DNA from: Candidatus Aegiribacteria sp.
GTDB taxonomy: Bacteria; Fermentibacterota; Fermentibacteria; Fermentibacterales; Fermentibacteraceae
Direction: 5' to 3'
Length of the DNA: 9,184 bases
Assembly: GCA_021107345.1 (NCBI GenBank)
Contig: JAIOSX010000093.1
Span: 1 to 9,184 of the forward strand
Positions 1,095 to 5,841 of this stretch are shown piece by piece; the first letter of the stretch is position 1; each line of letters begins with the position of its first letter. Under the pieces are notes generated by a model, which was given only the letters and a program-made list of their open reading frames with translations, ran no database searches and was not told where the DNA came from. The translations under genes and the position numbers were made by a program.

Positions 1095-1756
1095 TGGCGG
1101 ATCCAAGAAGAAGCATGAAGAAAAAAAAGAACGGAACCTCCTCAAGAAAAAGAGATCCCGTTTCAGAACCACAGGACGATATGAATAGCATTCAGGAAGT
1201 CGAGGAAGCTGAAGACAAGGCTGAGGGGATAGAGGCTGAAAGCCAGGAGTTTTCCGGAGATATCGAACCTGATCCAGTCAGGCTGCAGCTTCAGGAGAAA
1301 CTCTTGAGGCTCCAGGCAGAATTTGACAACTATAGAAAGCGTCAGGCAAGGGATTTCAGGCGGCTCTGTGATCAGGGAAAGAAAGAACTGATAGAGGAAC
1401 TCATAGCAGTGCTGGATAATTACCACCGGGCAGAGCAACTGGTTAAAGAAGGCGGCCATTCCGTTGAGGAAATAGCTGACGGGCTGTTGAAGACATCTGA
1501 ACAGCTGGTCAGTATTCTGAAGCTGGAGGGTCTTAGTGAGCTGGATGTAAAGAAGGAGGATCCCTTCGATCCAAACATCCACGAAGCCATGCTTGCTGAA
1601 CCAAGAGAAGACATTGATCAGGATACTGTTCTGGAGATTTTTCAGAAGGGTTACCTTCTCGGGCAGGATCTTCTTCGTCCCGCAAGGGTCCTGGTAGGTA
1701 AACCTGTTTCACCTTCGGCAACCGAAGAACAGTCTGATGACGAAGGGGGAGAATAG
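1094..1756 (+). CDS. grpE: Nucleotide exchange factor GrpE
   Basis: GrpE is the homodimeric cofactor that releases ADP from DnaK and so resets the chaperone cycle. The product is 220 residues, a normal length. A basic N-terminus (residues 5-20, rich in Lys and Arg) and an acidic stretch (about 28-60) precede the long dimerisation helix (about 62-115, with EFDNYRKRQ). The C-terminal beta domain follows, with the family signature FDPNIHEAM (158-166) and GYLLGQDLLRPARVLVG (186-202). The ATG at 1094 shares its A with the dnaK stop (TGATG), which suggests translational coupling, as I see no clear Shine-Dalgarno there. An in-frame ATG at 1115 is an alternative start that would lose seven residues and not affect the fold. 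A run of eight A residues lies at 1121-1128, near the start. The acidic tail after residue 205 is probably unstructured. Confidence 0.97.
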   Translation: MADPRRSMKKKKNGTSSRKRDPVSEPQDDMNSIQEVEEAEDKAEGIEAESQEFSGDIEPDPVRLQLQEKLLRLQAEFDNYRKRQARDFRRLCDQGKKELIEELIAVLDNYHRAEQLVKEGGHSVEEIADGLLKTSEQLVSILKLEGLSELDVKKEDPFDPNIHEAMLAEPREDIDQDTVLEIFQKGYLLGQDLLRPARVLVGKPVSPSATEEQSDDEGGE

Positions 1757-3010: not shown

Positions 3011-3046
3011 AAAGCTTACCCTTTATTCCATAAGTCCAAGCTTTTT
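3009..3046 (+). terminator. Possible terminator of the chaperone operon
   Basis: AAAGCTT at 3011-3017 pairs perfectly with AAGCTTT at 3038-3044, extendable by a G-U and an A-U pair, with a 20-base loop and a run of five T ending at 3046. It starts at the stop codon of the membrane-protein gene and overlaps the 3' end of the convergent gene. The stem is AT-rich and the loop long, so termination would be weak. On the minus strand no T-run follows. Confidence 0.35.
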
Positions 3047-4060
3047 AAAGTTATCGACAAATTCCAGCACCAGAACATCATCAGGAAAGAGTTCGAAGGC
3101 TTTTTTAGCAACCGATGCGGCCTCTTCCAGGGAATTATCCTGCACAAGTTCACGTATTACGGTTATGTATTCCCCGCTGGGAATGGAATCATCGTCTTCC
3201 GAATAGCTGTCTTCAGGGATTGAGGAGGAGGTACCGGAATAATTCTCGAGGTCGGAAAGAAGTTCATCCAGGTTTGCGGAATCCGGTCTCATATTAAAAG
3301 CCTGACGAGCAAGCACAACAGCCCTGGCAGCATCCCCCGATTCAAGTTTCTTTCTTGCTATCTGAACAAGGTTGGCAGATTTGATCTTCGTTTTAAGGAT
3401 ATTCATCCTTAATAGAGTTTCCGAATTATCCGGATCGAGTTTTTTGGCTTTCTTCAGATAGGAAATGGCTCTCTGCTGGTTGCCAATATCGTATTCCCTG
3501 TCAGACGCTTCGAACAGTTCGGTGAGTTTATCCTCAGAAGCCATGGATGTTATCTCTTCCTTGTTGATTTCCACAGCTTTCACTTCTGGCTCTGGTTCCT
3601 CCAAAGCCTGTTCCACCACCGGAACTTCCTCCGTGGTTTCCAGTGGTTCCAGTTCATCCAGTTCTATCATTGGAATATCATCCCAGGCTGCCTCCGGGAC
3701 CTCCGCCGGGATTTCAACCGGTTCCAGCTCATCCTGTTCTATTATCGGAATCTCTTCCCAGATTGCATCCGGGACCTTCGCTGTGGCTTCAACCGGTTCC
3801 AGTTCATCCAGTTCTATCATCGGAATCTCTTCCCGGGTTGCCTCCGGGACCTCCACTGGGGTTTCAACCGGCTCATTTTCAGGCTCCGTTGTCGGCTTTT
3901 TCTTACCGATAACCTTTATAACCTGTACGAGAACTCCGTTGTTATCGTCAACGTTGACAGCTTTCTTCATGATCTCAAGGGCTTCATTCCTCTTGTCCTG
4001 CTGGAGTTTCCTTTTGGCTTTTCGGACAAGACTGGCGATAAGCTTAACGTTTTTCTTCAA
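3023..4060 (-). CDS. TPR-like repeat protein with acidic/proline tandem repeats
   Basis: I recognise no named family; the protein looks like a cytoplasmic scaffold of tetratricopeptide-like helix pairs. With the chosen start it has 345 residues and neither signal peptide nor membrane segment. One helix pair lies near residues 5-50 (EALEIMKKAV). A low-complexity acidic/proline region follows, with three 25-residue tandem repeats (63-137) built on IPMIELDELEPVE. Three further TPR-like units follow (about 175-222, 230-273 and 297-342), each with an Ala/Lys-rich helix and a PD or PDN turn. An acidic Ser-rich linker (274-293) separates the last two. The start is TTG (complement of 4058-4060), 5 bases after GGAGG. 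The longer frame opening at 4144 has no such site, and its extra 28 residues are not helical-repeat-like. The gene is convergent with the chaperone operon and divergent from metK. It may mediate protein contacts; the partner is unknown. Confidence 0.8.
   Translation of the reverse strand: MKKNVKLIASLVRKAKRKLQQDKRNEALEIMKKAVNVDDNNGVLVQVIKVIGKKKPTTEPENEPVETPVEVPEATREEIPMIELDELEPVEATAKVPDAIWEEIPIIEQDELEPVEIPAEVPEAAWDDIPMIELDELEPLETTEEVPVVEQALEEPEPEVKAVEINKEEITSMASEDKLTELFEASDREYDIGNQQRAISYLKKAKKLDPDNSETLLRMNILKTKIKSANLVQIARKKLESGDAARAVVLARQAFNMRPDSANLDELLSDLENYSGTSSSIPEDSYSEDDDSIPSGEYITVIRELVQDNSLEEAASVAKKAFELFPDDVLVLEFVDNFKKLGLME
3650..3874 (-). repeat. Three in-frame 75-bp tandem repeats inside the TPR-like gene
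   Basis: The phrase GGTTCCAG(T/C)TCATCC recurs at 3645, 3720 and 3795, and a decayed fourth copy begins at 3870, an exact 75-base period. Read on the minus strand each unit encodes 25 residues, as EPVExxxxVPxAxxEEIP(M/I)IExDEL. The third, nearest the C-terminus, has EPVEIPAEVPEAAWDDIPMI. A partial unit EPLETTEEVP follows. Most differences between copies are substitutions and the length is fixed, so the array appears to be kept in frame. Confidence 0.92.
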
Positions 4061-4126
4061 TAGTGCCTCCGGAGATTCAATGGCCTGAAATTCAAAGATA
4101 ATACAACTTCGGATCATTCGGGAACC

Positions 4127-4154
4127 ATGGCAGTATATCCACAAGAACTGCCAT
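4127..4154. repeat. 8-bp inverted repeat, possible operator
   Basis: ATGGCAGT (4127-4134) and ACTGCCAT (4147-4154) are exact inverted copies separated by 12 bases, so their centres are 20 bp apart, about two helical turns. The pair lies just upstream of the weak -10 box proposed for the minus-strand gene. It could bind a dimeric regulator or simply be chance; no family match is apparent. Confidence 0.35.
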
Positions 4155-4315: not shown

Positions 4316-4526
4316 GTGACTGAACAGGCGACTTCCAACAGGAAAATCAGAGAGATACCTCTGCTGAAGGAAACAGACCTCCATCTGGCTGAAACTTCTC
4401 ACGAGAAGCTTCTTTATTACCTTTTTTAACGACAGTTCCGGTAAAGCATTTCTGAAGAATAGACGGAGTAAGGAGTGGGCTGCCATTGTCAGGGGAAGAG
4501 AAGAAATAGTATTCTTCAGATATTGA
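4316..4526 (+). pseudogene. Possible frameshifted small ORF, unknown
   Basis: From a GTG at 4316 a frame runs 37 codons to TAA at 4427-4429 (VTEQATSNRKIREIPLLKET and onward, ending EKLLYYLF). Removing one T from the six-T run at 4422-4427 would join it to a second open frame ending at TGA 4524-4526 (NDSSGKAFLKNRRSKEW to VFFRY), about 69 residues in all. The composition of both halves is protein-like, but there is no good ribosome binding site and I recognise no family. The second part also runs into the metK -35 region. It could be a decayed gene or chance. Confidence 0.2.
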
Positions 4527-4550
4527 CTTGAACAGGATTTATCATATCAT
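4523..4550 (+). promoter_or_regulatory. Sigma70-type promoter of the metK operon
   Basis: TTGACT (4523-4528) and TATCAT (4545-4550) each match the sigma70 consensus at five of six positions, with a 16-base spacer. Transcription would begin near 4557, which is where the riboswitch-like stem begins. This agreement supports both calls. The untranslated leader would be about 127 bases. Confidence 0.7.
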
Positions 4551-4557
4551 TGAATTC

Positions 4558-4613
4558 TGTGGAATGATTTGGGGAATATTGCAACCACATTAAAAAAAGT
4601 GCTAAAAAGCCGA
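4558..4613 (+). ncRNA. SAM-II-like riboswitch (S-adenosylmethionine sensor)
   Basis: The leader has the layout of the SAM-II aptamer, a classical H-type pseudoknot. Stem P1 is TGTGG (4558-4562) with CCACA (4585-4589). The loop carries TGATTT (4565-4570) and ATATTGCAA (4576-4584). An A-rich connector (4591-4598) leads to GTGCTAAAAAG (4599-4609). As I remember the published SAM-II sequences, these loop and tail motifs are the conserved ones around the ligand. TTGG (4569-4572) can pair with CCGA (4610-4613), closing the second pseudoknot helix. Where the crystallised SAM-II RNA has CC in the loop and GG in the tail, this RNA has GG and CC, which suggests compensating change. The TTGCA segment pairs less clearly with the tail than in the reference. 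The position directly before metK fits SAM feedback. Confidence 0.8.
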
Positions 4614-4624
4614 TAGCTCACCTC

Positions 4625-4646
4625 AGGCCGCCGGCGGCGGTTTTTT
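4625..4646 (+). terminator. Intrinsic terminator in the metK leader (attenuator)
   Basis: CCGCC (4628-4632) and GGCGG (4636-4640) form a perfect GC stem with a three-base loop, extendable by weak pairs to 4625, followed directly by six T (4641-4646). It lies between the SAM-II-like aptamer and the metK ribosome binding site, so it must act as a conditional terminator if the promoter upstream is real. GCCG at the aptamer's 3' end (4609-4612) is complementary to CGGC at 4635-4638 and could open the terminator when SAM is absent. That switching model is inference. Confidence 0.72.
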
Positions 4647-4683
4647 CATTTTCGGCCACAGAATAGAAGAGGTTTATCTTATC

Positions 4684-5841
4684 ATGGGTACAATGTTTAC
4701 CAGCGAATCCGTTTCCGAAGGACACCCCGACAAGATCTGTGACCAGATTTCGGATGCTGTTCTTGACGCACATCTTGAAGATGACCCGGATGCTCACGTT
4801 GCATGCGAAACCCTTGTAACAACCAATTTCTGCCTTCTTGCGGGGGAAGTGAAAAGTCACTCCGATGTGAATTACGAAAAGGTAGCAAGGGATACGATAC
4901 GCTCAATAGGGTACGATATCCCGGATCTTGGTTTTCACTTCAGCGAGAACACGTACAGGATTAAAGTACATTCCCAATCGCCTGATATCAACCACGGTGT
5001 GGTTGACAACAAAGGAGCAGGAGACCAGGGATTGATGTTCGGGTTCGCGTGCAAGGAAACAGAAGTTCTTATGCCCTATCCTATTCAGCTGGCGCACAGG
5101 CTTCTTGAACAGTTAAGTGAATCGCGCAAAGCGGGGGAACTCCCATGGGCAAGGCCCGACGCGAAGAGTCAGGTGACAGTGGAGTACGAAGGTTATACAC
5201 CTGTTGCCATTGATGAGATCCTTCTCTCCGTTCATCATGCACCCGCTGCTGAAACAGGAGCCATGGGGGAGGAAATACGGGAGAAAATTATAGTACCGGT
5301 TCTGGACAAATGCAGACCTTCTCTAGAATGGAACGGCAAGTTCCTTTTCAACCCCTCCGGGAGGTTCGCAATCGGCGGTCCCCACGGAGACACGGGGCTT
5401 ACCGGAAGAAAGATCATCGTTGATACATACGGTGGCTCAGGAAGGCACGGTGGAGGAGCATTCTCAGGCAAGGATTCGACCAAGGTCGATCGCTCTGCTG
5501 CCTATATGGCCAGACATATTGCGAAGAACGTGGTAAAGGCAGGCATCGCGGACAGGTGCGAAATTCAGTTAGCCTATGCCATAGGAAGGCCGGAACCAGT
5601 TTCCGTGATGGTAGAGACCTTCGGAACGGAAAAAGTCAGCGATATTGATTCCGTTGAAAAGGTGATCAGGGATATATTCCCTCTTCGACCATATAGAATT
5701 ATTGAGTATCTTGGGCTGAAGAAGCCTATCTTCTCAAGTACATCTTCCTTCGGGCATTTCGGCAGGGAACCCGGATCTGACGGATCATTTTCATGGGAAA
5801 AGACTGACAGGGCGGAGGAACTGGCTTCAAGGCTTCTCTAG
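4684..5841 (+). CDS. metK: S-adenosylmethionine synthetase (methionine adenosyltransferase)
   Basis: MetK makes S-adenosylmethionine from methionine and ATP, releasing phosphate and pyrophosphate, and acts as a cytosolic tetramer. The 385 residues match the family length. Near the N-terminus is [13 protein letters not shown] (5-17), with the His and Asp of the ATP/Mg site. The signatures GAGDQG (111-116) and GGGAFSGKD (256-264) are intact, and [14 protein letters not shown] (231-244) and DRSAAY (269-274) are also present. The ATG at 4684 is preceded by AGAAGAGG (4665-4672) at an 11-base spacing, rather long. ATG 4693 would be a slightly shorter alternative, but both give the same conserved core. 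A promoter, a SAM-II-like aptamer and an intrinsic terminator precede the gene, so it is probably repressed by its own product. The next gene follows after 31 bases. Confidence 0.98.

Follow-up and report, generated by a model that had tools for sequence, protein, structure and literature searches.

The metK locus and its leader

The window, by which we mean the whole 9,184-nt stretch of DNA analyzed here, encodes metK together with a partial dnaK, grpE, dnaJ, an M23 peptidase, a DNA polymerase III delta-type protein and a PSP1/RicT protein. A TPR protein with an acidic and repetitive middle part is encoded at 3023–4144 on the minus strand, opposite to dnaK-dnaJ and metK. The metK gene (4684–5841, plus strand) encodes a 385 aa SAM synthetase that matches PF00438, PF02772 and PF02773, all above cutoff, and a Shine-Dalgarno (SD)-like GAAGAGG (4666–4672) lies 11 nt 5′ of its ATG. 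A search of genome contigs with MetK gave a best identity of 57% among the matches listed, so that close relatives may have been missed, and a search of plasmids returned no relative closer than 60%.

The leader of metK carries a SAM-II aptamer. In a scan of the whole window against 4227 Rfam families (cmscan), the sole match above its gathering score was to RF01726 (SAM-II long-loop), at 4553–4615 on the plus strand (E = 2.2e-6). The match spans model positions 1–60 of 60 and scores 45.8 bits against a gathering score of 44, a margin of just 1.8 bits. The original prediction of a SAM-II-like aptamer 5′ of metK is thus upheld, through a sister of the covariance model that it had named: RF00521 (SAM_alpha) reached 30.7 bits against a cutoff of 36 in a scan of positions 4450–4720 with matches up to E 10. 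The SAM-V model, which it had also named, was absent from the eight matches of that scan, as were SAM/SAH (RF01727) and SAM-Chlorobi (RF01724). The aptamer had been placed from 4558; the RF01726 match opens slightly earlier, at 4553. Pseudoknot-free folding of the single window sequence revealed no excess stability (z = 0.00).

Every element that had been named for this leader is present in the sequence. Both RF01726 and an alignment of 36 leaders (see below) place the P1 stem at TGTGG (4558–4562) and CCACA (4585–4589). GATTT (4566–4570) and TTGCAA (4579–4584) lie between the P1 strands, and an A-run (4592–4598) and GCTAAAAAG (4601–4609) follow them. L1 and the 5′ strand of the P2 pseudoknot form TTTGGGGAATATTGC (4568–4582, columns 19–33 of the alignment), and the 3′ strand of P2 is GCTAAAAAGCC (4601–4611), in which T4603 is unpaired. 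An intrinsic terminator (4625–4646) comes next and consists of a GC hairpin (4625–4643) with six T (4641–4646). These elements are all on the plus strand, as is a sigma-70-like promoter, TTGACT-16-TATCAT (4523–4550), which matches 10 of 12 consensus positions and predicts a transcription start at ∼4557. The promoter ends 7 nt before P1, in agreement with the earlier claim that the aptamer begins at the predicted start.

Distribution of the aptamer

The aptamer recurs before metK throughout the phylum. Among the named relatives of the PSP1 protein are Candidatus Aegiribacteria (74%), Sabulitectum, Fermentibacterales and Fermentibacteria, which places the contig in Candidatus Fermentibacterota. 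Our phylum set comprises 42 genomes around G134, a 71% match among 193 genomes drawn as relatives of G001; we take the phylum of G134 to be Fermentibacterota. RF01726 was found at E ≤ 0.001 in 35 of these 42 genomes, above cutoff in 19 and below it in 16, and a metK start lies downstream of all 35 hits. MetK itself was detected in 38 genomes. The seven genomes that lack the aptamer comprise four without a detected metK (G217, G221, G225, G228) and G210, G231 and G232, which have a metK fragment alone. The G210 fragment ends at the last base of its contig and the G231 fragment starts at contig base 6. In G232, the metK pieces occupy two frames, with a stop, within a contig of 3380 bases, and this copy is therefore broken or misassembled. 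Among the 35 aptamer-bearing genomes, metK is in pieces in two (G234 and G239). Across the 36 leaders (35 phylum hits and the window), which we refer to as alignment A1, P1 lies 106–128 nt from the start codon.

Outside the phylum, RF01726 was found in seven of 343 further, more distantly related genomes under strict filters, one of these matches being weak (33.7 bits), and it was absent from the 17 genomes of UBP14, the phylum of G001. Two aptamers in other genomes (L161 and L162) lie 5′ of metK. Three more (L164, L165 and L166) precede Cys/Met-metabolism PLP enzymes (PF01053), which we call metY-like and metZ-like; our hairpin and T-run script found a terminator for L164 and none for L165 or L166.

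One genome, G113 (1.3 Mb), has a SAM-II aptamer in a different setting. This aptamer (G113:C14:11822–11880, minus strand; 1501–1559, minus strand, of L163) scores 49.1 bits, above cutoff, and its leader shows by eye a hairpin that hides the SD. It lies immediately 5′ of three genes on the same strand: an uncharacterised ORF, a C5 cytosine DNA methylase (PF00145, 236 bits) and a restriction endonuclease of BglII type (PF09195, 37.2 bits against a cutoff of 26). By its sequence, this is a predicted SAM riboswitch before a restriction-modification operon. The methylase and its neighbor ORF, taken from the surrounding region (L204, G113:C14:7500–13500), had no confirmed relatives in viral contigs. 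When RF00521 was run on five genomes outside the phylum, it matched in G113 only, below cutoff.

In one of the 42 phylum genomes, contig G243:C72 (L202, L203) carries two SAM-I riboswitches above cutoff (65.2 and 62.2 bits) beside SAM-II. The available text of a 2007 survey (PMC2258182) reports no species with both SAM classes, and the co-occurrence in G243 is possibly assembly contamination.

Conserved aptamer features and the P2 pseudoknot

Examination of the 36 aligned leaders highlights a strongly conserved aptamer core. The blocks GTGGA, ATTT, TATTGCA, CCAC and CTAAAA are invariant, as are columns 19–21 and 28–33 of L1 and the P2 5′ strand. The alignment likewise retains a P1 hairpin that encloses L1, GATTT and TTGCA, with GCTAAAA 3′ of P1; the three exceptions are L119 (ACATTT) and L159 and L160 (ACTAAA). 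The four inner pairs of P1 are invariant, and the outer pair is CG in 18 leaders, TA in 11, TG in five and unpaired in two. The alignment columns that we take to be the SAM contacts of the crystal structure are invariant in all 36 leaders.

P2, as we draw it, joins columns 24–62, 25–61, 26–60, 28–58, 30–56, 31–55, 32–53 and 33–52. Its pairs are present in nearly all leaders, and compensating changes are rare: L125 has AU for GC, and L124 and L159 have TA for TG. In the window, the cap pairs 4573–4611 and 4574–4610 are both G-C. These two column pairs are near-constant across the leaders (GC in 34 and GU in two; GC in 35 and AU in one), so few changes support them independently. The next column pair, 26–60, is TG in 20 leaders, CG in eight, TA in two and AG, which is not a pair, in six. 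The window is among the last, so that its cap has only two pairs because the third (A4575 × G4609) is non-standard, unlike in the 30 leaders where that pair is standard. In permutation tests over the 36 leaders that ignore kinship, 1720 of 5000 permutations paired the P2 cells as well and 562 of 20000 gave as good a cap duplex; for P1 cells, the count was 3827 of 5000. P1 and P2 cells show no excess over permutation because their columns hardly vary. The GG/CC cap that had been suggested for the window is plausible, and it is typical of the phylum. Compensating changes lend it thin support, and the ‘inverted’ pair, which had been read as a compensating change, is ordinary pseudoknot variation.

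The expression platform

The features around the aptamer are also conserved. The best promoter-like site matches at least eight of 12 positions in 32 of 36 leaders; 27 of these sites lie 7–9 nt 5′ of P1. Of the 36 leaders, 34 have a hairpin with at least four T in the next 8 nt, among them the window, where the GC hairpin with six T had been pointed out from the start; the leaders without a T-run are L124 and L125. The proposal of a terminator-bearing SAM-II leader outside the alphaproteobacteria therefore holds for Fermentibacterota.

Both strands of P2 have complementary segments in the platform. CCTC, complementary to the GRGG of L1, occupies columns 75–78 directly 5′ of the hairpin in 31 of 36 leaders; L103 and L105 have CCCC in its place, which matches their GGGG when shifted by one base. 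In the window, the candidate alternative partner of L1 (TTTGGGG) is ACCTCAGG (4620–4627, plus strand; −7.1 kcal/mol), whose last three bases lie at the base of the terminator. Moreover, TCGGC (4652–4656, plus strand) is complementary to GCCGA (4609–4613), which comprises part of the P2 3′ strand and its flank (−8.7 kcal/mol). TCGGC is kept 3′ of the T-run in the window’s clade. It comes too late for the termination decision and perhaps keeps P2 open in read-through mRNA. The long-branched L125 (G214; leader 1428–1564, minus strand) perhaps has a different platform: AGTCGGAT, its P2 3′ strand, forms a perfect duplex with ATCCGACT past the hairpin (8 bp, −12.2 kcal/mol).

We consider it probable that this SAM-II riboswitch represses metK by transcription termination, as an OFF switch that responds to SAM. 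SAM binding, the direction of control and the choice of alternative pairing are what we infer in the following scheme. The RNA would start at P1. With SAM bound, L1 and the 3′ GCTAAAAAGCC would form the P2 pseudoknot around SAM, P1 and P2 would be stabilized, and the terminator (4625–4646) would fold, leaving metK OFF. With SAM absent, P2 would open and its strands would be free for capture by the platform. L1 (TTTGRGGY) would go to RCCTC+RRG, which in most leaders reaches into the foot of the terminator’s 5′ arm; in addition or instead, the terminator 3′ arm would take up the P2 3′ strand (GCCGNN). Such capture would weaken termination, and metK would be transcribed (ON).

The alternative pairings fit their own leaders better than permuted ones. 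With kinship ignored, as in all of our duplex and column permutation tests, the duplex between L1 and the downstream leader averages −9.5 kcal/mol over the 36 leaders, against −8.6 kcal/mol after permutation of the L1s, and 2 of 20000 permutations were as good. For the L1 × RCCTC duplex, 4 of 20000 permutations were as good. Its five core column pairs are paired in 163 of 180 cells, against 158.0 when permuted (7 of 5000), and all ten in 284 of 360, against 278.3 (123 of 5000). On the other strand, as good a duplex arose in 82 of 20000 permutations for the P2 3′ strand with the terminator 3′ arm, and in 7 of 20000 for that strand with the post-terminator leader. In L116 and L122, the best L1 pairing lies within the terminator 5′ arm itself (−13.8 kcal/mol).

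Kinship qualifies these results. In a tree built from metK for 34 leaders (L102 and L156, with short metK, were left out), the key columns change few times, column 26 five times and the base before CCTC nine times. An independent-pairs test on this tree gave two pairs on starred branches, and four and five on all branches. The alternative pairings beat permutation and are still candidates, as related leaders supply too few independent changes for proof. Furthermore, 45.5% of 200 shuffled window leaders gave an L1 pairing as good as the real one, and many other leaders are likewise no better than shuffled. In 24 of 36 leaders, L1 × RCCTC pairing would draw on bases of the terminator stem; in the other 12 it uses none. 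The hairpin left after L1 pairing averages −9.8 kcal/mol over all 36. Because a hairpin remains, termination would be weakened rather than abolished. We therefore place moderate confidence in termination control and treat the strands of the alternative pairing as candidates. Rather speculatively, the phylum may use a SAM-II variant in which the near-fixed GRGG of L1 can build the pseudoknot of the SAM-bound state (GGY/GCC) or, alternatively, one with RCCTC at the terminator’s foot, so that two pseudoknots would compete for one loop and SAM would be sensed directly at the gene that makes it.

The same elements could instead act on translation, although we regard this as unlikely. Here RCCTC would be an anti-SD that L1 captures without SAM and that covers GAGG with SAM; the hairpin would be a spacer or a constitutive terminator, and both levels of control could act together. 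In the window, ACCTC (4620–4624) can pair with GAGGT (4669–4673) at −7.5 kcal/mol. The hidden SD of L163 offers a precedent in another SAM-II leader, as does metA of Sinorhizobium (S.) meliloti, for which SD control is described together with a terminator that is not predicted to respond to SAM (PMC9373788). A 2024 review (PMC10907184) likewise files SAM-II/V among the classes that block the ribosome site. However, pairing of RCCTC with the SD region is not matched to the individual leader: 19910 of 20000 permutations did as well or better, and we rejected RCCTC as an anti-SD for want of support. In eight of the 36 leaders the 35 nt before the ATG contain no GAGG, yet seven of these (L097, L099, L100, L101, L108, L119 and L124) keep CCTC, and the retention of the T-run hairpin in nearly all leaders also argues against purely translational control.

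Somewhat less likely again is a constitutive terminator, either an attenuator or the end of a small RNA, with the aptamer acting on it through RNA stability or not at all. The S. meliloti study (PMC9373788) describes SAM-II small RNAs that end at a terminator and, for metA, a terminator to which no antiterminator could be assigned by prediction, and our candidate antiterminator pairings leave much of the hairpin intact. Against this, both P2 strands stay complementary to platform segments across deep splits. A switch built on the 9-bp inverted repeat 4554–4562/4656–4664, in which CCACAGAAT, upstream of the SD, would pair with the P1 5′ strand, is very improbable: the match is perfect and both the minimum-energy and the centroid prediction contain it, but its 5′ arm begins upstream of the predicted transcription start, and it is lost in the near relatives L121 and L109, partial in L106 and not seen by eye in other leaders. 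We rejected it as a switch arm on this lack of conservation. Finally, the score lies near the cutoff, yet a chance resemblance is scarcely credible for a motif that sits in the same place in 35 of 42 related genomes.

Comparison with known SAM-II systems

The termination mechanism that we favor is not foreign to SAM-II. The original prediction held that SAM-II control is usually translational and that termination sets the window apart, a view that stems from the crystallised example and that the 2024 review, citing metX, supports. It is weakened by the 2007 survey (PMC2258182), according to which terminators are the commonest SAM-II platform in alpha- and beta-proteobacteria, and by the Pseudomonadota loci described below. 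The same survey states that the gene-control mechanism of SAM-II had not been established experimentally as of 2007. Another paper (PMC1273637) describes many SAM-II members as having putative terminators, places possible start sites immediately 5′ of P1 and assigns a few members to the Bacteroides group. In the 2022 study of S. meliloti (PMC9373788), no antiterminator could be predicted for one of two cases. For riboswitches of Fermentibacterota, we found no paper in the open-licence literature.

The window shares with RF01726 P1, the L1 GATTTG, TTGCAACC, the A-rich connector and GCTAAAA, and L161 and L162 likewise precede metK. RF01726 is recorded in Bacteroidetes and marine samples (PMC2864571), whereas the window belongs to Fermentibacterota. 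Its P2 cap is GGY/GCC, where we read the Rfam consensus as ACTG/CAGT, and it has a terminator, unlike the RF01726 metK loci L162 (none by script) and L161 (none by eye). With RF00521 it shares the aptamer plan, a promoter just before P1, a terminator platform and complementarity between a P2 strand and the terminator region; it differs in scoring below the cutoff of that model, in its shorter P2 and in preceding metK. SAM_alpha is found chiefly before metY in alphaproteobacteria, and also before metA, metX and others (PMC4239095). Aptamers in metK leaders are known from SAM/SAH (RF01727) and SAM-Chlorobi (RF01724) (PMC2864571). A further parallel is the SAM-II leader of S. meliloti metZ, where SAM is likewise predicted to permit a Rho-independent terminator and the terminated RNA is ∼100 nt (PMC9373788). 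That organism is an alphaproteobacterium, in whose cells the effect of SAM supply on the switch was measured.

We also surveyed 398 genomes of the phylum to which G415 belongs; this genome contains locus L035 and is a Pseudoxanthomonas, and the phylum is therefore Pseudomonadota. RF00521 was found in 83 of the 398, above cutoff in 69. We examined the best-scoring 30 loci, of which 29 contained the motif and 27 have a hairpin and T-run. Pairing of L1 to the terminator region reaches −12 kcal/mol or better in 25 of those 27, a complementarity that is partly trivial because P2 in these loci is near-palindromic; in L187 and L190, both the hairpin and the pairing are weak. The same switching logic is possible in these loci.

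Implications for the phylum

By its conservation, the metK leader looks like a genuine and functional SAM-II riboswitch, a new branch of a known class. What is new is the phylum, the little-studied Fermentibacterota; the kind of switch is ordinary. The interest of the finding lies in the phylum-wide use of this switch at metK and in the possible competition between pseudoknots. The 36 natural leaders, with their short platforms, provide material on how a pseudoknot aptamer drives a terminator. SAM-II thus appears to be the standing control of metK in an uncultured phylum, apart from the alphaproteobacteria and Bacteroidetes.
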